Shown one piece after another: positions 2,739 to 61,700 of a stretch of 64,000 nt of DNA. A program made the translations under genes and the position numbers. The notes beneath the pieces were generated by a model. It was given only the letters and a program-made list of their open reading frames with translations. It had not been told where the DNA came from and searched no databases. Each line of letters begins with the position of its first letter. Positions within the stretch are counted from its first letter, which is position 1. This stretch comes from Chlorella sorokiniana (lineage: Eukaryota > Chlorophyta > Trebouxiophyceae > Chlorellales > Chlorellaceae): contig CP084608.1 in the NCBI GenBank assembly GCA_025917655.1, forward strand, positions 1,488,001 to 1,552,000, written 5' to 3'.

Positions 2739-3156
2739 TTCAGTCGTCGCTGCGACAGCTGCAGCGCGATGGCGGGGGCAAGCAGGGCGATGGCTCGCAC
2801 TGCGGGACTGCGCGGAAAAGTGGCGCGGTTTCGATGCTGGAGTGCTGCGGCAGGGACAAAAGCAAGTAATTGTGTGCATGTAGAAGCTGACTTTCATCAG
2901 AAACGTCCAATAAGAGCGCGCATGTAGCATGCGTACTGCGCATGTATTTCAACCGCTGCTCTTGAAAAGTGCCACTTCATTTAGTAATGCGGTTCAATTG
3001 ATCTATCATTCAACCTGCAGCAGAATTTGACTGCCCCCTGTCCTCTCTGTGATCAAGCTTGGCGTAGGCAAGTTTCCTGTGCTTCAGAAGGGCATTGAGG
3101 CGGCATGGTATATACATCAGCTGACTGCTCATGCAATCAAGCCAGTTCGGCCATCA

Positions 3157-25041: not shown

Positions 25042-28000
25042 ATGGCGGAGGCTGACCTGCCGGTGCTGCCCAGCAACTTCTTCAATGACCCAGCTCTCAC
25101 CGGCCATTGGGACTTTGAGAAGGACTTCAAACATGTCGTGGAAATCGGCAAAGGCAAGGCGAGTGCGAGGGCGAACTAGCGTGAAGGGGCAGATAGCGGC
25201 CGCCGCCTGTCCTGCTCGGGACACCACACGCTGGCACGCCGAGCATCAGGAGCTTCATGAGCCATGCATGTGCCGCTGACACAGACTGGTCAGAAGGGTG
25301 GCAAGGTGGTGTTACACCAGGCATGGCTGTGGCACCGCAGGACACGCTGATCTACAGCGCGCTGTGCCCCAAGCTGGGGGGCCGCCGCGTGGCGGTCAAG
25401 GTCTACGACAAGACCAAGGTGCAGGCCACAAAGTACCGTGCCATCAAGCGCGAGATCGCCATGATGATGTTCTTCATGAAGAAGGGGTGGGTGGGGGCGT
25501 GAGGAGTGAAGGAGCGGTGCGTGCCCGGCGCAGCGGGAGCCTGGGGGTGCGCTGGGCGGTCCCAGCCCGCTCGCGCCCCTCCGTCCTCGACCACCACCTG
25601 CACACCTCCCTGGTTTTGCAGCTTCACACCGCCACCAGCCCCTCACCTTCCTCCTGCCTCCTTCCTCACCTATTCTATGCTGTTGGCATCTGCCATGCCC
25701 AAAAGGGTGCACCACCCCCCGCCCCCCAGCCTGCCCTCCATCGTGGAGTTCTACGCCGCCTTCCACGACGACGCCCACCTGTACATCGTGATGGAGCACT
25801 GCAGCGGCGGGGACCTGCTTGAGAAGCTGCTGCGCGACAAGAAGGCGATGAGCGAGGCGCGCGTGGCCGCGGAGGTGGCGATGCCATGCCTGTCCATCCT
25901 GGCCACCCTGCATGAGATGGCCATCATTCACAGGCGAGGCTGGCATTGCGATTCGGAGTTAGAGCCGGGGAACGCATAACAGCATACATGCAGCAGCTTG
26001 GTTCCTGTGCACATCGGGGGAGGGCAGCAGCTGCCTGCAGAGGCGCCCGCCTCTCCCTGCAGCCAATGTTCTGGCGCAGCGTTTTGGGTCGCTGGCTGGC
26101 TTGCCAGACACTGTGCAGCGCCTGCCTGCAGGGACATCAAGCTGGAGAACATCTTCATCGACAGCAGCGGCAGAGTGAAGCTGGTGGGGGCTGCGCTGCC
26201 CAGCAGGCCGGCGCTGCGCCGCAGCCTGCTCTCTTCATGCCACACGCTGCTGCTCTTAACATGTGGGGGCCTGCCAATGCTGGCCTGCGTGCAGGGAGAC
26301 TTTGGCCTGACCATGAGCATGCGCCAGGAGTCGGCCATCTCGCCGGTGGGCACCGTGGAATACATGGCGCCCGAGGTGAGGTCCCTGCGGCTTGTGGGGA
26401 CGCCCTCCCTCAGCGGAGGCAGCAGCTGCTGGAAAGTGCCCAGTTGCTCACAGTATGGTCCCTCCCGCTTCGTTGGTGCGCAGGTGGTTGCGCTGCCTCC
26501 GGTGGACATGGTTGTGAGCGGGCAGGTGAGGGCCACCGAGATCCCGCCCACCAACGAGAAGGTGGACATCTGGGCGCTGGGCGTCACCATCTTTGAGCTG
26601 GTGACAGGTATGCAGGCATCCATGCACGGAAGCCGGCGGCAGGCAGGCACAAGGGAAATCCATTGTCACCTGCGCCTGGTTGATTTTTACTTTCAAGGTG
26701 CAAGCAGGCTGCAGTGCGCATGACTTCCCTTTCTCAGTGTCTTCCGTGCATCCACTCCCTCGCCCATGCGCAGGCCGACTGCCCTTTGAGGGCAAGGACA
26801 AGCCGGAGATCAAGCGCAACATCACCGCCAACAACCTCGCCGCGATGCCCTCCTTCCTCACCCCCAGTGCCAGTCCTTCATCCACTCCATGCTGACCTAC
26901 AGCGCCGACGAGCGCCCGTCTTGCACGCAGCTGCTGCAGCACCCCTACATCACCATGTACTGCGCGCAGCCACCCCCAAAACCTGTCGCGGCGCCTCCCA
27001 ACGCTATCAACTTGCATGCGTACAGCCTGGGAGCAGGTGGGTCGCTGGTTTAGGCTCTCTGCACTGTGCTGGTTGAGTAGCTCTCAATCCGGTTAGTCAC
27101 CAACCAAACCGCGTTTGCCTGTGTGGCTCGTGTTCGCAGCACATGCACTGGGGAGGGAGATGGCTTAGCTGCACCGTCGGATGTGGCGGTTGGACGAGCA
27201 AGCCCCCAAAGCCAGCTGGCGCCCGGGGTCAACAGCAGCAGCAGGCTTGCGCCTGGCAGCAGCAACCGACAGCAGAGCCCAGACCAGCCGAGCACCACTC
27301 AGCGCGGTGCCCACCCGGCAGCGTCGTACCGTGATGTGCTGACTTGCAGGGTCCACCACATGCCCTCGCCCCGCCCCCTGGAGGCTCGCATGTTCCTGCC
27401 ACAGGGTCGCGGAACGCGGCGGCCACCAGCGGGCAGAGCAGCCCCACCATCCCAGCTCAGGGTGGCTTCACAGCACGGCCAGACTCCTTCACCTCGCCAC
27501 TGCGCCGCCAGGGCCAGCATGGCGGTGGCACCCCATGCCAGGCAAGACCAGTGTGGACTTCTTTGCCGGCAGCAGCGGCAGGCAGGCGGCACCTGCAGAG
27601 CCTGCAGAGGTGAGCGGGTGATGCTGGTCTGACTGTGTGCGGCCACCAGCCACAGAAATGGCTGCTGCGGTCGGTTAACACATGGACTTGATGAAACACA
27701 GGGAGGCCTCGGAGCGTTAGGAGAGCCAAGCAGCAGCCGCCTGGCCGACCCTGGCTTTGATGCTAACGCTGGCTACTCCAGGCAGTCAGAAGGCAGCGCG
27801 AGCTGGCCTTCTGAGCGCAAGCGCAGCGCGGTTTCGGGACGGTGGGTTTGCACCATCACCGACAGCTCTCTTGAACATGGGTGCCCTTTGACTCGACACC
27901 AGGCAGGTGGGCTGAGCACCCACCACATGTCCCCCGCCTGCGCAGAGCATGAAGTCCGCACTGCGGAAGTTGTTCACGCGGCGTGGTCAGCATGTGCGCT

Positions 28001-28062: not shown

Positions 28063-28492
28063 GGTGGCGGCAGCAGCGGGTGGCCACTGTTGACGCGCGC
28101 GTTGCGGCGCTCTTCCTTTTGTAGCTGAATTGCACAGTTTGAGAGTATCCATATCGTGTCACCTTTCCCCTACTCGTTCCTGCACTGCCCTTGCCTACAA
28201 CAAAAACCTTTAGTTTCCAGATCTCTATGTTGCAAGCTGGCCAAAGCGTATGATGAGGGCTGCAAATGAGGCCGGAATAGAAGCCAGACCTTGAAGGTGG
28301 GGTGCGCTGTGCTCCAGCCAGCTGAAGCTCAAGCTGCTCTCGACACACCTGCGCTTGTGCAGCCTCAGGCCGTACAGTCACAGGGGCGGGGGGTACAGAC
28401 AGCCAGAGGTTTGCTGTGAAATCACAGTAGAGAAAGCGATGCACAAAGTGCTGCACTGACTGGAGCAGTCATGGGAGGGCAAGCCAGGAACG
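28063..28492. other. Convergent 3' spacer
   Basis: Between the stops of the kinase (plus) and the ubiquitin-like gene (minus). It holds both 3' UTRs; composition is less GC-rich. No RNA gene or repeat was seen. Confidence 0.5.
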
Positions 28493-30300
28493 TCAGGCCC
28501 TGAGACGGCCGAGGGCCATCTGCGCCTCGCGTAGCAGGCGCTGCAGCACCACCACATCTTGGATGCTGTCCACATCAACCTCCGCCAGCTGGACAGCCTG
28601 CTGCTGCGACAGGCGTCTGCGCAGGCGCTCAAGCACCATGGCGTGGTCGTCTTCCCATCCGCAGTCCAGCAGCACTGCATAGGTGCTTGTTTGAGTAAAC
28701 CAACCAAGCTTATTTTGCTGTCAAGTTGCTGAAGCACGACACCGACACCAGCCCCACCTGCGGTTCCGTCTGGCAGCACCACTTCCACTGGGACCCGGCC
28801 CCCAGCGGTGATGCGCGCCAGCTCAGCCTGCTCGTCAGCGCCAGCAGGCAACGTCGCACCAAAGTCGCCCTGCCGCCCGCTGGTGTAGTGGAACATGCCG
28901 CCGCGCAGTCGCAGCACCAGATGAAGGGTGCTGCCATGGGTGATGCCGTAGCTGGACAGAGTGCGCCAGTCCTCCAGCTGCTTCCCCCAATCACCATGCG
29001 CTGCTGGTCGGGGGATGCCTGGAATAGGAGGAAACATGCAGGAGGGGCCTCAGGCCTCTCTTGTAGCAGAAATATGGCTGGACATGGCATGCTGCGCAGC
29101 TGACGTGCATGGGAACGTGAGCACTTGCCTTCTTGGTCAGCCACGCGCTGCTTCAGATCCTCCACGCTGTGCTCCGGTTCGCAGCGGATGGTCACTGTCT
29201 TCCCAGTGAGCATCTTCGCATATATCACCATGCTGCCTGCGGCGCAAACAGGGCAAGGACGCGGGAACTCAGAACAGGAAGCGTGCAACGTTGTGAGCCA
29301 GCCACGCCTGCCGGAACCGGTAGCACAAGGCAGCGCAGCAGGCCATGGCATCCGGCTCCTACCTGTGCCACAAATAGACATCCGCGCAGTCAGCTTGCTG
29401 CCCGGCAAGACGCCCTGCTCCTCCAGGTCGCCATCTGTAACGCTCCGATGAAACGCCAGCAGAACTCTGCCCGGCGGTTCATCCAGCACTGTCGCCACGT
29501 AGTTGCGCAAGTAGCGCCCGTAGTGCCCTCTTCAACCGGGACCTCAAGAAGCCCGCCACCCGGCAGGTCCACGATAACCTGCTGGAGGTGGGGAACGGCA
29601 TGTCAGTCACCTCCAACGGCCAGTGGAGGGAAAGCAGGACCTGCTGCTGCAGCAGGGCAGCAGACAGGCAGAGCATGTGCAGTACACCAAGCGTAACAGC
29701 AGAAAAATGGCTCACCTTGGGCCTCGTGAAGGCAGCGCACTTGCAGAAGCTGCTCAGAGCCAGCGAGGCGGGAAGCTCATCATCATCTGCCAGCGGGCGC
29801 TTGGTGTCGGGGCTGTGCAACAGCGCAAACAGGTGGGTCTGCGATGGCAGACCGCCACCCGGGCGCCAGCCGCGAGCGGACAGGAACAGACGGCGCTTGG
29901 AGCCTGCACCTGCTGGCGTTTGGGTGTCTGCGTGTAGGCCGGTGCAGGGGTTCCAACCCATTAATGGTGGGTTAATTGGGTGGGTGAGGCTGGAACAGAG
30001 GATCAACCAGCAAGGTGGCAGCCTCACCATCCAGGTGGTGCAAGCAGCTGGAAATGATGCCCCAAGCATCAAGTCTAACCGAGGACACGGCACAAACTCT
30101 TCTGGGCAGCACCCACCGGCGTCTCCAAATCTATCCAAGCAACCGTCGAGGAAGCGGGCTGGTGCTCGGTGCCACTCCATGATGCACAACGCAGCGCCTG
30201 TGCGACGTTTCACAAACTTCTTCACAGCTTTGATGGAACACACGCCCTCTGGTAGCTCAAGCGACCTCTGCTTGCCGTCCACAAAGATGGTCACATGCAT
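28493..30300 (-). CDS. Multidomain ubiquitin-like protein with internal LRLRGG
   Basis: ATG 30298-30300 ([19 protein letters not shown]), following a probable untranslated first exon. Three beta-grasp-like segments are visible: the N-terminal one; a middle one ([18 protein letters not shown] ... [15 protein letters not shown] ... [13 protein letters not shown]); and a clear ubiquitin-like one ([20 protein letters not shown], then [20 protein letters not shown] and [10 protein letters not shown]). After LRLRGG the chain continues with [16 protein letters not shown] and about 130 more residues ending ALGRLRA, TGA 28493-28495. It is therefore not a polyubiquitin. If cleaved after GG it would release a modifier; otherwise it is a ubiquitin-like adaptor. 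A one-base loss in the run 29526-29528 breaks the middle domain. The identity beyond the fold is unknown. Confidence 0.7.
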
Positions 30301-30807
30301 GGCTACTGGCTTGCCCTGCAAGCGCACGAAAGAAGGGCTGCGGGTCATTGCAGCCCTCCCCCAAACCCTGTGCTGGCCAGCGTCAAACTCGACCAGTTCA
30401 CGTTGTCCATCCTCTAGTTTAATTTGAGCCAGAGTGCTACCTGGGAGCCTGCAACGCACGGCAGGTGCAGCGATTCTGGAACTGGACGAGTGCTGGGTTC
30501 AGCCGATTTCTAAGCGAAGCATAAATTCGCAAAGAGCGACTTAACCTCCAGACTTCGCAAGGGGCACCTGAAGACCTGTGTTGAAGGTTCAAGGCGCTGT
30601 GATGACAAGGAAGAAGTCTCACATGCGCTATACAATCTTGTCACTCAAGGATAGGAAGCGACCTAGAGACCTAGAGACCTTTCAAGCCTCCACCCGCTGC
30701 AAATTCCACGTACTGCTGCGGGACGGGACTCGCCCACCCTGCTCTCAACCAATTCCGTGAGGCTCTACCGTGCTCTTGCAGTCGATTTGTAAGCTGTACC
30801 CGACATC
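30301..30807. other. Divergent spacer between UBL and deiodinase-like genes
   Basis: Between two divergent start codons and so carries both promoters; part (about 30320-30460) is probably the non-coding first exon and intron of the ubiquitin-like gene. A short tandem CTAGAGAC repeat occurs near 30662-30681. No TATA box was recognised. Confidence 0.45.
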
Positions 30808-32563
30808 ATGGACCTGCATGTTGCCCTGCAGCTGGACCCTAGCACCGCGGACGTCGAGAGCTTGAGGCTGGCCCTTAAAGCGGCCATGGCCGCCCTTACG
30901 CAACCAGGAAAGGCGACCGCCAGAGATTCGGTGCAGCCAGATGCCGGCAAGGCCACGGCTGCAGCCGCTGCCGCCGCTAGCGCAGGAGCGGGCGCACTGC
31001 TGTCTTTGGACCAGCTGCGTGCCATGCTGCGGCGCGAGGACGAGCTGCGAATGAGCCAGGAGGTGCAAGAGGCTTACAGAGGTGTGGGAAAGGCTTGCAT
31101 GCCCTGTCCTACTCATGGCATTGTCTGGTTATTGCTGGAAGCCGTGAATAAGGTTGCGAGTCCCGAGGGGGCGCTTTTTCTGCCCCATTTGCGGCCTCCT
31201 GCTGTGTCCTTACCTCCTCCCCCATGCGCCGCCGCCCGATCTCAGAGGCCGAGCTGCGGGACGACACAGACTGGATGGAGGTGACGGCGGAGGTGCAGCG
31301 CCGCGTGATGCGCGAGTTTGGCGTGCCGCTGCACCGGGTGCGCGCGCTGCCGCTGGCGCATGCTGTTCGGCTGGGCCCCTGCCCTGCAGTCAGGCCACGG
31401 TTTTGCAGTGCAACCACGCCCCCGCTTGCCTGCGTCCGACACGTCCGTATGCGGTCAACGTCGCGGTGCAGGAGGAGGCGGCTCTGCGCTGCTTCAGGGC
31501 AGCGCCGCACCGCCACCCCGAGCTGAAGCCCCTGGCTGTGTACCACCGAGCGCAGCGCTCGCGCCAGGGAGACCTGCGGGAGGGGGACCCCGTGCCGCCG
31601 CTGCGCCTGTCCGACACCTCCTGCCGCTCGCTGTGCCTGGGCGGGCTGTCGGCGGGGCCGCGCCCGCTGGTGCTGCTGGCGGGGAGCTGGAGCTGACCGC
31701 CGTACCGGTGGGTGTAGATCAGGAACAGGGGGAGAGGCGCGGCCAGGTCGGCTGATTTTGCCAGCTGGCGGTCGCCGTGCTGCTCCCTCGCATGCTGCTG
31801 TCAGGCGGAGCACGTTCCGCTGGGTGCCCCGCGCTGCATGCTGTCGAAGGGCGCCCCCGTGCGCAGGGGGCTCGTGGCGGCGTTCAACTCGCTGCACCGC
31901 GAGCTCCTGGGGAGGGCCGAGGTACGGGCGTGTACATCGCTGAGGCCCACGCCGCCGACGAGTGGCCCATCTGCAGCGCCCGCTTCACGCCCGACTGCCG
32001 CCCCGTGGCGCTGGTGCGGCAGCGCAGCACGGCGGAGCGCGCCGACGCCGCCCGTCGCTTCGTGGAGCAGTACGGCTTCCAGGTGGGGCCCTGGAGGCAC
32101 GCTGGGGGCACATGGTGTGGGGCACAGCTGCCCTGCCGGGGCTGCCGGCGAGTGGAGGCGCAGCCCTGGCATTGCCACCTCCTGCTGGCCACACGGCGCT
32201 TGCCCCCCCGGTCCCTGCAGCCGCCCATGCTGGTCGACCCTCTGGACCCCGGCAACAGCGATCCCTTTGAGGCGGCCTTCGCCCCCTGGCCCCTACGCTT
32301 CTACATCCTGCACCGCGGCCGCGTGGCCTACAAAGCGCAGGTGGGACGGCCATGGCAGCCATGGGTACACTCTGCAGGCAACCCACAACTTGTGTGCCAC
32401 CCGCTGCCTGCTGGACTGCCCGCCCACCACAGCAGGAACAACCCCTCCCCCATCCTCCACTGCCCTGCTGCAGCCCCGCGACTGCTCCTATGACATGGCG
32501 GAGCTGAGGGAGCGCGTGCTGCAGCTGCTGGAGCAGGAGGAAGCGGCACAGGCTGCAGCGTAG
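30808..32563 (+). CDS. Iodothyronine-deiodinase-like selenoprotein (thioredoxin fold, predicted Sec at TGA 31694)
   Basis: Six exons: 30808-31081, 31246-31337, 31409-31711, 31805-32082, 32221-32340, 32474-32563; about 385 residues. Deiodinase-family motifs: PRPLVLLAGSWS-[TGA]-PPYR aligns with the family active site GS.T-U-PPF; GVYIAEAHAADEWP matches the Glu/His loop (YIEEAHPSDGW); VALVRQRSTAERADAARRFVE, PMLVDPLDPGNSDPFEA and LRFYILHRGRVAYKAQ follow in family order. The TGA is the only stop in the chain before TAG 32561-32563 and would be Sec at about residue 218. The N-terminal 200 residues are an Ala-rich helical part not typical of vertebrate enzymes. All exon phases agree if one base is missing near 31922. 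Algae lack thyroid hormone, so a redox or dehalogenase role is inference. If TGA were a stop, the product would lose the whole catalytic fold. Confidence 0.85.
31694..31696 (+). other. In-frame TGA, predicted selenocysteine codon
   Basis: TGA flanked by AGC before and CCG CCG TAC after, reading S-U-P-P-Y. The position is the catalytic Sec of deiodinases. Strong family similarity continues downstream in the same frame, with no donor site just upstream that would skip it. Confidence 0.82.
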
Positions 32564-32653
32564 CCATCGAACAGGGCTGAGCACTGCCAGCGCGCCTTTT
32601 TGTCGATTGTTTGCAACTTGCGTGTTCAAGATGACTCGGTGGTGCAGCTAGAT

Positions 32654-32720
32654 GCAGCCCATGACGGCCTGCTGGCAGCTTGGCGCCAGCAGCGCCAAAC
32701 CAGCGGGCTCGACACGCTGC
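32654..32720 (+). promoter_or_regulatory. Candidate SECIS element, form 2-like, in the deiodinase-like 3' UTR
   Basis: Read by hand. Helix I GCAGC (32654-32658) with GCTGC (32716-32720); internal loop; a core of ATGAC (32661-32665) opposite CGAC (32710-32713), giving tandem G.A pairs; helix II of ten pairs between 32666-32675 and 32700-32709, two of them G.T; apical region with a mini-stem GGCGC/GCGCC (32682-32686, 32692-32696). It starts about 90 bases after the TAG stop. The apical AA normally found about 11 bases after ATGA is replaced by CA, which lowers confidence. A competing hairpin (GCTGGC with GCCAGC) is possible. Confidence 0.55.
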
Positions 32721-33494
32721 CCTGGCCAGCACCCACCTGTTCTTGAACGCTGCTGCTATGTCTGCTCCCCTCGCTGCTCGTTATTCCCGCCTGGTTTACA
32801 TTTTCCAATGCTTGCACGTCCTCCCCCTTTATAATTTGCTGGTTACCAGGTCATGCCCCTGCCTGTGACGCGCATTGCCACCTCAAATTTGGGAGCAGGG
32901 TGCCAATGTTTGGCTCCGCATGCGGCTCCCGCTTGCGCGTGGCCGCCGCCTCTTGGCGGCCAAGTATGGTGCTGATCGAGCGGTGGTGGCCTGTGGGCAG
33001 TGGATGAGGTGTTAGCTTCCGCATGCCTCCCTCTCTCTCTTTCATGGAACCCAGCAGCGTGTGGGGTGCATGAGACCAAGCAGCAGCCTTGGGTCCAGGT
33101 TATGAAGGGTCAGGGGTCCAAGGTTGGTCGGCCACAGCCACATCCTGCCCCGCTGCATCCCTCCCCCCCAGCGTTGCTGCCTGCCTGTCCGCTTAGCACG
33201 TCACTCACAGGGGGCCATGTTGATGATGCTGAGGTCAGCAAGAGCAGTGGTGTCGGTCAGGCCGCCGTCGCTGCCGGCCGGGTGCGCGGCGACCACAGCA
33301 GCCTGAGCAGGGGTAGGCATGATGCAGGCCGGGCTTGAGCAGCTGCTGGGGGCGAGAGGTCATGCCGAAGAGTATGCAAGGCGCACTTGGTACGAAAATG
33401 TGGAGTTGGCGTTAAGGCGGGAGAGCTGCACAGGAATCGCCACAGTAGCAGCATGTGGCTTGCACACCGTGGTCAATGGAGGATAGAAAGTAAG
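32721..33494. other. Convergent 3' spacer
   Basis: Between the candidate SECIS and the stop of the minus-strand hydrolase. A minus-strand TGTAA lies near 32793-32797, but far from the hydrolase stop. No convincing gene or structured RNA was seen. Confidence 0.45.
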
Positions 33495-34831
33495 TCAGTC
33501 TGCTGCTGGCAGTGCTGAGTGAGCTGCTTCTGGGAGAAGCGGAGGGGCGGCCTGGCGCAGCTGCCCGTGCGCTTCAGCCCATCCCGCCACATCCTGGAGG
33601 ATCTCGCCGCCGTGGCGCCCCACCAGGCTGATGTGCCCCTCGCCCTGCACCAGGTGGAGCTGGCAGCGCGGCAGCGCGCTCTGGTAGAACTGGGCGTGGG
33701 AGGGCGGCACCACGGCGTCCTCGCTGCCGTGCCACACCACCGCCCTGCGCACGGATGAGCGGCCCAGGACACTCGGGCTGGTGTTGACCGCCAGCGCAGC
33801 ACAGTCAAGCATCCCCACTACGCGGCCGAAACCCCCAATCCCGACCAGCAACCGCGGCGCATCCAGGGTTGTGCTAGCAGGCGGCAGAGCAGCAGCCGGG
33901 CGGCGGCTGCCCACCTGGCCTGCACCGTGGCCAGGTCCACCCCCAGGGCGCCGCCAGCACCCGGTAGTCCCGCAGCACGCCCTCACCCCTCCCTGGTACG
34001 CGCGCTGTGCTTAGAAGGAGGGGGGTTGCGGGGGGACAAGGGTTGGGGCCAGCCACGCACAGCACTGCAGCCCAGCACCGCTGCAGCCCCCCCGGGAAGC
34101 TCCGGCCCTGGCATGCAAGACAGCGGCAGCAGCAGCCGGCCGCCTCGCCTGCAAGAATCGCAGCAGCCAGTCCTTGTGCTGCTCGGCGTCGGGGCTGTCC
34201 CGCAGGAAGGCGGCGTCGGCGGGGCCCAGGCTGCCGCCGGCGCCGCGCTTGACCGCCCCCGGCGCCAGCGCCGCCGCCGCCCGCACGCAGCTGTTGATCA
34301 GCAGGCCCGCGCCCAGCCCCCGCGGCATCAGGCACCAGCGGTCCATGCCGGCCAGGCAGGCGCGCAGCGCGGCGTGCTCGCCGTGGATGGCCCCCAGCCC
34401 CGCCAGCGTCACCAGCTGCTGCGTGCGGCGCGGCTGCAGCGCGGCAAAGGCCGCCGCATAGGGGCCCCGCCGCTCTCGCCCACCTGCACCGCCGAGGGCA
34501 GGGCGAGGTGGTCCAGCAGGGCCGCCGCGTCGGCCGCCACGCTGGCCAGGCTCATGAGCGGGTCGCGGGTGGAGCCCCCATGCCGGGCCGGTCAAACGCC
34601 ACCACCGCCACGCCCAGCGCGGCGCCTGCCGCCGCCAGCGGCTCTGCCTCCACCAGGCTGGCGGGCACGCCGTGGTGGTAGAGGCACACCAGGCGCGCCC
34701 CGCCAGCGGCGCCCCATGCACGCGTATGCCAGCGTGCGCCCGCCGCCCAGCCGCAGCGCTTTGATGGCGTAGCCGCCAGGGCCCTGCCCCGATGCTGCCG
34801 GCTCAGCTGGGGGCGCTTCAGCGGATTCCAT
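33495..34831 (-). CDS. Alpha/beta-hydrolase fold protein
   Basis: ATG 34829-34831 (MESAEAPPAEPAASGQG), stop TGA 33495-33497. The order of motifs is that of an alpha/beta hydrolase: strand and oxyanion region LVCLYHHGVPASL, VVAFDRPGMG, nucleophile elbow VGESGGAP (Ser), then a cap region (LRACLAGMDRWCLMPRG), the acid in VVWHGSEDAVVPP (Asp) and the base in VQGEGHISLVG (His). Length about 330 residues is normal. The frame changes by one base at least three times inside conserved stretches, at C/G runs 34712-34715, 34575-34579 and 34461-34468. Either the assembly is wrong in several runs or this copy is decaying; because neighbouring essential genes show the same pattern, errors are preferred. Substrate unknown: esterase, epoxide hydrolase and lipase relatives share this layout. 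Confidence 0.8.
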
Positions 34832-58704: not shown

Positions 58705-61700
58705 TCACACATACCGGTGCAGCGAGCTGGGCACGCCGCCCGCCGCCCTTGCACACTTGGAGCAGGGGCCCTCAAAACCGCCCGCTGCCAATTCCTGCGG
58801 GGTCAGCGTGCGCAGGGTGCCGCTTCGGTTCCCGGCCTTCACAAACTGGCAGTCCCAGCTCCAGTGGATCTTCTTGCCGCTGCCGCACTGGAGCAGCTGC
58901 ACCTCAGGCTGCCAACCGCCATGGGCAGCGGCAGCCGGCTTGGACGCCGGCGCCACCCGCACGGGCTCTGGCTCAGGCTCTGGCTCCCGGTACCGCCCCG
59001 CCGGTTCCGAGCGCCCAGGTGCAGCGTGGCCGGCGATGGGGTCGCTGCCAGGGCAGTGGGAGCAGGCCTTCAGGCCGCCCTCAACCGCCTCCCGCCAGGT
59101 CAGCCGGGTCTTCTGGCCGTCCTTGCGCATGTGGCGGCACTCGTTGCTCCAGTGGTAGCACTTGCCGCTGCCAATCTGCCACAGCGGCACCTGGCTGCCG
59201 CCATGGGCAGCGGCTGCCGGCCTGGCCGCGGGCGCCACCCGCACAGGCTCAGGCTCGGGCTCCCAATACCGCCCCGCCGGTTCCGGGCGCGCAGGTGCAG
59301 CGTGGCCGGCGATGGGGTCGCTGCCAGGGCAGTGGGAGCAGGCCTTCAGGCCGCCCTCAACCGCCTCCCGCCAGGTCAGCCGGGTCTTCTGGCCGTCCTT
59401 GCGCATGTGGCGGCACTCGTTGCTCCAGTGGTAGCACTTGCCGCTGCCAATCTGCCACAGCGGCACCTGGCTGCCGCCATGGGCAGCGGCTGCCGGCCTG
59501 GCCGCGGGCGCCACCCGCACAGGCTCAGGCTCGGGCTCCCAATACCGCCCCGCCGGTTCCGGGCGCGCAGGTGCAGCGTGGCCGGCGATGGGGTCGCTGC
59601 CAGGGCAGTGGGAGCAGGCCTTCAGGCCGCCCTCAACCGCCTCCCGCCAGGTCAGCCGGGTCTTCTGGCCGTCCTTGCGCATGTGGCGGCACTCGTTGCT
59701 CCAGTGGTAGCACTTGCCGCTGCCAATCTGCCACAGCGGCACCTGGCTGCCGCCATGGGCAGCGGCTGCCGGCCTGGCCGCGGGCGCCACCCGCACAGGC
59801 TCAGGCTCGGGCTCCCAATACCGCCCCGCCGGTTCCGGGCGCGCAGGTGCAGCGTGGCCGGCGATGGGGTCGCTGCCAGGGCAGTGGGAGCAGGCCTTCA
59901 GGCCGCCCTCAACCGCCTCCCGCCAGGTCAGCCGGGTCTTCTGGCCGTCCTTGCGCATGTGGCGGCACTCGTTGCTCCAGTGGTAGCACTTGCCGCTGCC
60001 AATCTGCCACAGCGGCACCTGGCTGCCGCCATGGGCAGCGGCAGCCGGCCTGGCCGCGGGCGCCACCCGCACAGGCTCAGGCTCGGGCTCCCAATACCGC
60101 CCCGCCGGTTCCGGGCGCGCAGGTGCAGCGTGGCCGGCGATGGGGTCGCTGCCAGGGCAGTGGGAGCAGGCCTTCAGGCCGCCCTCAGCCGCCTCCCGCC
60201 AGGTCAGCCGGGTCTTCTGGCCGTCCTTGCGCATGTGGCGGCACTCGTTGCTCCAGTGGTAGCACTTGCCGCCGCCAATCTGCCACAGCGGCACCTGGCT
60301 GCCGCCAGAGGGGAACAGCGACCGGGCGGTCTGGTAGGTGCTGCTGGCGGTGTCGGCGGTGCGGTCGCTGCGCTGCCGAGAGTCCCAGTTGTTGGGGGTG
60401 GGGACCGGCTGGGGCTGCCGCTGCGTCTCGTCTGGAGAGGCGCTCTGGGCAGCGGGGCCAGGGTGGTCCCTGCCGGTGAGCATGCGGTACAGCGAGCGCC
60501 CGTGGGTGGCCTCCTTGAGGCACTTTCTGCACTCCTCGGTGCCCGCCACCTGGCTGCGGCGCAGCAGCCCCGCGCGCCGCTGCAGCCGGGCGCAGGTGCA
60601 GGCTGAGCGCGGAGTTGGTGTGCTTCACCCAGCACTGGCGGCTGCCCGGGGCCAGCATCAGGTCGTCGCCCGAAGCAGCTCCTGGACGGCGGCGGCGGCG
60701 GCCGGGCGGGGCGAGCGCGGCGGGCGTGCCGACGGGCGCCTCCGTCACGCGCATGATGCAGGCGTGGGGGCCCACCATGCCGCCCGGCCTCCTCGTCTAT
60801 CTCCACCTCGTAGCCGTGCTTCTCGGCGGCGGCCTCCAGCACCTCCAGCATCTCCTGAACAGCCTCCCTCACCGCCCTCTTGCCGCCAACGCGGCGCAGC
60901 TCGCTGACAGAGGGGATGCACACCAGCACGGCCTCCTCACACAGGGAGCACGACTCCAGCGCCGCAGCGCCCAGGGCCGCCGTTTCGGCGGGGCCCAGGC
61001 CGGCATGCACCACCACAGCCGCCACGGCGGCGCCCGACTCCAGCAGGTCCTCGCAAGCCTGCACACAAAAGGCCGGGAAAGGGAGGGGTCCAGTGCATTG
61101 CAGCAGGCGTCCAACACAGGGACCCTTGCAGGCCGTTTTCGTCGAAGCCCTGCCGCCGTCAACCACCCTTGCACCCAGGCGCCCCGCCAGGAAGCACTGG
61201 CACGTCCGCCAGCTGGCACGCCTGCCCTGCGCACCGCTCCCAGGCGGCAGGGGTGGCCTCGCACGCGCGACAGATACTTGTGGAGGTCCTCAGACCTGTA
61301 GAGGGTAGCCAGGGTTCAGGCGTTCCAGTCAAAGCATGTGCCCCTTGCAGGATGCGCCCAGCTCTACTGCAGCAGAAGCCAGCACAGCGGTGCCGCCGTC
61401 CCCGCCTCACCGGTCGGCGGCGGTGCGAATGCCGCACACAAAGTCCGCGAGGTTTTCGTTGACCAGTACGATGTCAGAAGGGGACATGCCCAGCATCAGA
61501 CATGCCTGCAGTAGCAGGCAGGCATGCCGGAAGATCGGTGAGCATAACCAGGCGAGCGGCGGATGGCGGCAGCGGGGCGGTAAGGATTTGTGAGAGATGC
61601 GTGGGAGGTGGTACGCTGCTGGCGAAAGGCTCCCTGCAGCCCGACATAGATGATTCACCTTCACAGTGGGCAAGCCGCGCCCTTCCCAAACAACCACGGC

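Follow-up and report, generated by a model that had tools for sequence, protein, structure and literature searches.

Does a green alga with an in-frame TGA in a deiodinase-like active site encode a selenoprotein there, and if so, is the gene intact and what might its product do? We addressed this question in the window, i.e., the whole 64-kb stretch of DNA that was analysed, which very probably carries a deiodinase-like selenoprotein gene of an already known kind and would thereby give the deiodinase family one more probable Sec-type member that is not from an animal.

Gene model and family assignment

We predict a six-exon gene on the plus strand, with borders taken from sequence alone, introns of 164, 134, 159, 138 and 133 nt that are all GT-AG, and a product of 342 residues in which the TGA is residue 197. 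Its features are:

30808-31081, plus strand: exon 1; ATG start, open frame and GT donor; Ala-rich N-terminus; upstream in-frame stop at 30790
31246-31337, plus strand: exon 2; GT-AG borders, reading frame preserved
31472-31707, plus strand: exon 3; encodes RPLVLLAGSWS-U-PPYR; placed on intron sizes, exact DIO2/DIO3 spacing and a Pfam score of 66 bits
31694-31696, plus strand: TGA, predicted selenocysteine (Sec) codon; aligned column holds TGA or Cys in relatives
31867-32082, plus strand: exon 4; encodes VYIAEAHAADEW (relay Tyr, Glu and His plus Trp)
31921-31929, plus strand: frame change at a GGG run with no intron; the spacing falls one base below that of the family
32221-32340, plus strand: exon 5; GT-AG borders, within the Pfam match
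32474-32563, plus strand: exon 6; stop codon TAG at 32561-32563

The sequence-only reading had placed the active-site exon at 31409-31711. Those borders were rejected on three grounds: the introns come out at 71 and 93 nt, 22 extra residues stand beside the active site relative to DIO2 and DIO3, and the Pfam score is lower. With the exon redrawn to 31472-31707, the flanking introns (31338-31471, 134 nt, and 31708-31866, 159 nt) come near the other three in size, the insertion is gone, the spacing to mouse DIO2 and DIO3 is exact, and the score for the Pfam family T4_deiodinase (PF00837) rises from 50.5 to 66.0 bits. An intron excising the TGA was dismissed on inspection alone, since the active-site motif would go with it. 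GC3 is lower in exon 1 (0.71) than in exons 2-6 (0.83-0.96, partly computed with the earlier borders), and we count the low value of exon 1 against the selenoprotein-gene explanation.

The corrected model matches PF00837 with an E-value of 4.2e-18 over residues 155-327, spanning Sec 197 (curated cut-off 27 bits), whereas the best stretch obtained with the earlier borders (E 2.2e-13), residues 248-370, lay entirely 3' of the TGA. The Pfam search proposed as a check therefore returned a family match above cut-off, but one that crosses the TGA only after the borders are redrawn. The TGA noticed within S-W-S-TGA-P-P-Y is indeed in frame, in the context G-S-W-S-U-P-P-Y, and family similarity continues in frame on either side of it, the stronger part lying downstream; the 97-residue segment that runs from exon 3 up to the frame change, Sec site included, scores by itself 17.4 bits (E 0.003), below the Pfam cut-off of 27. 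The N-terminal 200 residues had been described as unlike animal enzymes, which holds for residues 1-154 of the model and no longer from residue 155, where the Pfam match starts. Besides a score over the cut-off, the features that mark PF00837 members are present, namely Sec/Cys in GSxxU/C together with Y224, E227, H229 and W234. Among PDB sequences, the matches at E up to 1, obtained with the earlier gene model, are to DIO3 and DIO2 only. In the alignment made with the corrected borders, the pieces of these two enzymes are 29-30% identical to the algal protein.

In the genome searched (38.8 Mb, 15 contigs) no second copy of the gene was found; all five matches fall within the window gene, one stretch being matched in two frames. 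A six-frame PF00837 search gave no match in the genome and likewise none in 14 controls, and the algal gene was presumably missed through its fragmentation into exons.

To find relatives, bacterial and archaeal genomes were scanned with a query alignment that combined the algal protein with the mouse DIO2 and DIO3 pieces. The scan yielded 119, and the best 80 of the 119 were analysed; by title these are mostly Planctomycetota and Verrucomicrobia, and one is an archaeon (L077). Of these 80, 48 have TGA and 32 have Cys at the column of the catalytic codon, a ratio that gives no estimate of frequency, as one of the two search patterns required a Cys codon. Y224, E227, H229 and W234 are matched in 78, 79, 79 and 72 of the best 80, respectively, and in both mouse enzymes. 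The residue preceding Sec/Cys is Thr in all of the best 80 and both mouse enzymes and Ser196 in the alga, and at the further relay His position the alga has Gln253 where 74 of the best 80 have Pro. In the tree the algal branch has a length of 2.42 against a median of 0.26, and the algal row is unplaced (support 35/80, long branches meeting); we therefore make no claim on the gene's origin. Viral contigs, phages and plasmids yielded no relative. The motif of bacterial deiodinase-like proteins is given as UxxC in a passage of a review (PMC13188914); Cys at that position occurs in 0 of the 48 TGA loci among the best 80 of 119 and is missing in the window gene too.

The SECIS-like hairpin and the Sec machinery

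Downstream of the stop codon lies a hairpin resembling a eukaryotic SECIS element:

32641-32733, plus strand: SECIS-like hairpin with a long lower stem (32641-32735 folded)
32661-32713, plus strand: SECIS-like core; ATGA ... CGAC with the quartet ATGA/CGA, 10-bp helix II, 7-bp apical mini-stem

The ATGA is 97 nt 3' of the stop codon, and the folded segment has an MFE of -54.4 kcal/mol (z -4.42), with none of 200 shuffles equally stable. The apical loop reads CAGC and lacks the usual apical AA; the genome's other three elements have AAAC, AAGC and AAAC. Long mini-stems have been reported in SECIS elements of Ostreococcus and Chlamydomonas, according to the text of PMC2375036.

A covariance model, R1, was built from the elements of a glutathione peroxidase (GPX) gene on contig C7 and of a SelT-like gene on C3 only. 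Across both strands of the window, R1 put 32659-32715 first of five listed matches, with 20.7 bits and an E-value of 0.0023 against 10.6 bits and 1.5 for the next, E-values that are rough owing to a short calibration. Over the window plus 17 loci (115,839 bases), R1 recovered the element of a second GPX gene, outside the training set, at 27.9 bits. An unexplained weak R1 match (15.2 bits, E 0.14) lies at L108:1986-2026.

The Rfam model SECIS_1 gave no match at 30500-34000 even at E up to 10; four other Rfam matches there, with E-values of 0.84 to 6.6, were taken as chance. SECIS_1 scores the GPX and SelT-like elements at 24.6 and 29.4 bits, both under its gathering score of 35. Genome-wide it returned one weak match, the 24.6-bit one on C7 (E 0.318), and 4 of 14 prokaryotic controls matched at the same loose limit. 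The 29.4-bit element behind the SelT-like Rdx gene on C3, missed genome-wide, appeared when L020, L021 and L023 were scanned locally; the element of the second GPX gene (C5) was not listed in L023 by that scan. A scan for SECIS shape, devised after the candidate had been seen, listed 14 sites on both window strands at 8 pairs and a lower helix of 3, and two at 10 pairs and 4, these being the candidate and a site at 25464.

Turning to the decoding machinery, we found a tRNA-Sec on contig C8 (67.6 bits, above the gathering score) and three weaker matches below that score; all 14 controls match at E 0.001, and only 5 of them exceed the gathering score. The SepSecS family (PF05889) gives five exon matches on C3, the best exon reaching 164.9 bits and one match spanning a TGA. 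As PF05889 also matches 3 of the 14 controls, Bacillus subtilis included, it is by itself no proof of SepSecS.

Other genes of the genome have TGA at a Sec site. The GPX gene on C7 (L020:1860) has an in-frame TGA in NVASE-TGA-PLQNVNY and a SECIS-like element at 2947-3008 downstream, and the second GPX gene on C5 (L017, about 1374) has one in NVASK-TGA-GLTSVNY with a SECIS-like element at 2974-3028. We take NVAS-x-U to be a mark of Sec-type glutathione peroxidases. A further SECIS-like element, at L021:1606-1670 (C3), lies behind the SelT-like gene, whose name we presume from its sequence, the Pfam assignment being Rdx; its Sec codon was not found within the stretches read, and the gene therefore served as a SECIS source only.

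That the gene encodes a deiodinase-like selenoprotein with a predicted Sec at UGA, the central proposal of the sequence-only reading, is thus supported by the family, by TGA or Cys in 80 of the best 80 of 119 relatives, by the hairpin and by the Sec machinery. The family, the TGA position, the hairpin, the tRNA-Sec and SepSecS-family genes and the other genes with TGA at the Sec site are computed rather than inferred, and we regard a deiodinase-family selenoprotein gene as well supported. Counted against it are the frame change, the CAGC apical loop, Ser in place of Thr beside Sec, the long branch and the lack of a SECIS_1 match in the surrounding 30500-34000.

The frame change and the state of the gene

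Even with TGA read as Sec, the assembled gene is a broken reading frame, a point on which the earlier account was silent. Between GRAEVR and VYIAEAH the frame shifts by one base with no space for an intron, and the family spacing fits exactly given one residue at this site. The frame change is followed by 120 codons without a stop, and GC3 is 0.93 directly before and 0.96 directly after it. Genome-wide exon matches to HSP70 and TCP1 (57 and 55, 112 together; 19,404 bp) contain one comparable frame change. It is an apparent one-base change at a G run in an HSP70-family gene (L107, contig C3 near 1270969), and its position suggests G-run errors in the assembly. From 1 per 19,404 bp, the chance of an assembly error in a gene of roughly 1 kb is about 5% by simple arithmetic.

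We consider an assembly error likelier than decay as the source of the one-base change, though only moderately so, and we keep the pseudogene reading under consideration because comparable frame changes occur in this assembly but uncommonly. Recent decay of a deiodinase-like selenoprotein gene, with a real frame change, a drifting SECIS and no full-length protein, appears to us unlikely, but it carries appreciable weight. The frame change, the non-AA apical loop, the Thr-to-Ser replacement beside Sec and the long branch all agree with it, as do the single comparable case in 112 exon matches and the low chance of an error in this gene, whereas the long open frame past the change, the high GC3 of exons 2-6 (with the reservation on borders given above), the still strong folding of the hairpin and the G run at which the lone HSP70-family change likewise sits speak against it. 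We judge the gene's intactness in the sequenced strain to be only likely.

On balance we think it probable that this is a six-exon nuclear gene for a PF00837 selenoenzyme of presumed thioredoxin fold, with UGA decoded via a 3' UTR SECIS and the frame change somewhat more likely an assembly error. In such a gene the 3' UTR hairpin (core 32661-32713) would act as a eukaryotic-type SECIS that recruits the cell's Sec machinery, and the UGA would be translated as selenocysteine. The selenolate of GSWS-U-PP might then transfer two electrons in a redox reaction with a small substrate, either oxidised or halogenated, with the conserved Tyr-Glu-His relay assisting its chemistry and cellular thiols possibly resetting it.

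Known relatives and possible function

The implied surprise that an alga should have a protein of an animal family finds no support in earlier work, as the texts of these papers already report deiodinase-like selenoproteins in bacteria (PMC1088965), Dictyostelium (PMC2375036) and algae (PMC7539508). The algal study resembles our case in describing a Sec-containing DIO family in algae and puts the share of Sec-bearing proteins in DIO and three further families at 80%; its text leaves the DIO-bearing species unnamed. The Dictyostelium discoideum protein, likewise a deiodinase homologue beyond animals, was termed unexpected in 2007, and the passages concerned describe a SECIS of type II whose mini-stem is very long; the apical bulge of Dictyostelium SECIS elements reads AAA, whereas the window hairpin has CAGC (PMC2375036). 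Prokaryotic deiodinase-like proteins (text of PMC1088965 and the best 80 of our 119 loci) share Sec/Cys at the same column and the same Tyr, Glu and His. Their loci are single uninterrupted reading frames, with Thr before Sec/Cys throughout the best 80 of 119, in contrast to the spliced window gene with its Ser. For the Sargasso Sea bacteria, the text of PMC1088965 considers the Sec and Cys proteins likely to differ in function from animal deiodinases and to be possibly redox-related. In main texts, 0-5 selenoproteins are reported for Trebouxiophyceae, Sphaeropleales and Streptophyta, and the papers matching both Trebouxiophyceae and deiodinase name no such gene there.

The animal enzymes DIO1-3 (PF00837; structures 4TR3 and 9H48), in which Sec is specified by UGA plus a 3' UTR SECIS according to the literature, share with the window protein the GSxxU-PP active site and the YI.EAH..D.W stretch. 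They differ from it in their N-terminal anchor, in residues 1-154 being outside the Pfam match, and in two relay positions: as described in the text of PMC11592359, the active-site relay includes DIO2 Thr129 and His182, in place of which the alga has Ser196 and Gln253. By hydropathy, the only measure applied, no N-terminal transmembrane anchor is seen, the best 19-residue value being 1.48 in an Ala-rich stretch.

We favour a role as a soluble, thiol-dependent redox protein, a view suggested by the fold known for the family, by the relay residues and by published work; thyroid hormone is an unlikely substrate. A true deiodinase, acting on iodine or some other halogen in aromatic compounds, would be compatible with the Sec reading and would fit the retained animal active-site Sec, Tyr, Glu, His and Trp, but Gln in place of the further relay His, at a position that is Pro in most of the best 80 of 119 relatives, and the lack of a membrane anchor by hydropathy make it doubtful. 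More speculative still is a soluble algal deiodinase-fold selenoenzyme that dehalogenates aromatics and is decoded via a SECIS without the usual apical AA, which we consider improbable. As no other copy turned up in the genome, the gene would permit a direct test of whether such proteins outside animals have another function, possibly redox, provided that the organism can be cultured.

It is very improbable that the TGA simply ends translation or is a miscalled Cys codon, yielding a truncated or Cys-type deiodinase-like protein, since Cys at this column in 32 of the best 80 of 119 relatives (from a search that favoured Cys) and the possibility of a substitution error in a single assembly are set against a rightly placed SECIS-like hairpin that tops the window in the independent model R1 and a family match that extends 130 residues past the TGA.

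Elsewhere in the window, four 91-codon open stretches on the plus strand at 59159-60259, with starts every 276 bases, suggest a tandem repeat. On the minus strand, a frame at 28378-29049 has a ubiquitin-family match of 31.2 bits, and another at 33495-34010 has a weak alpha/beta hydrolase match under the cut-off.
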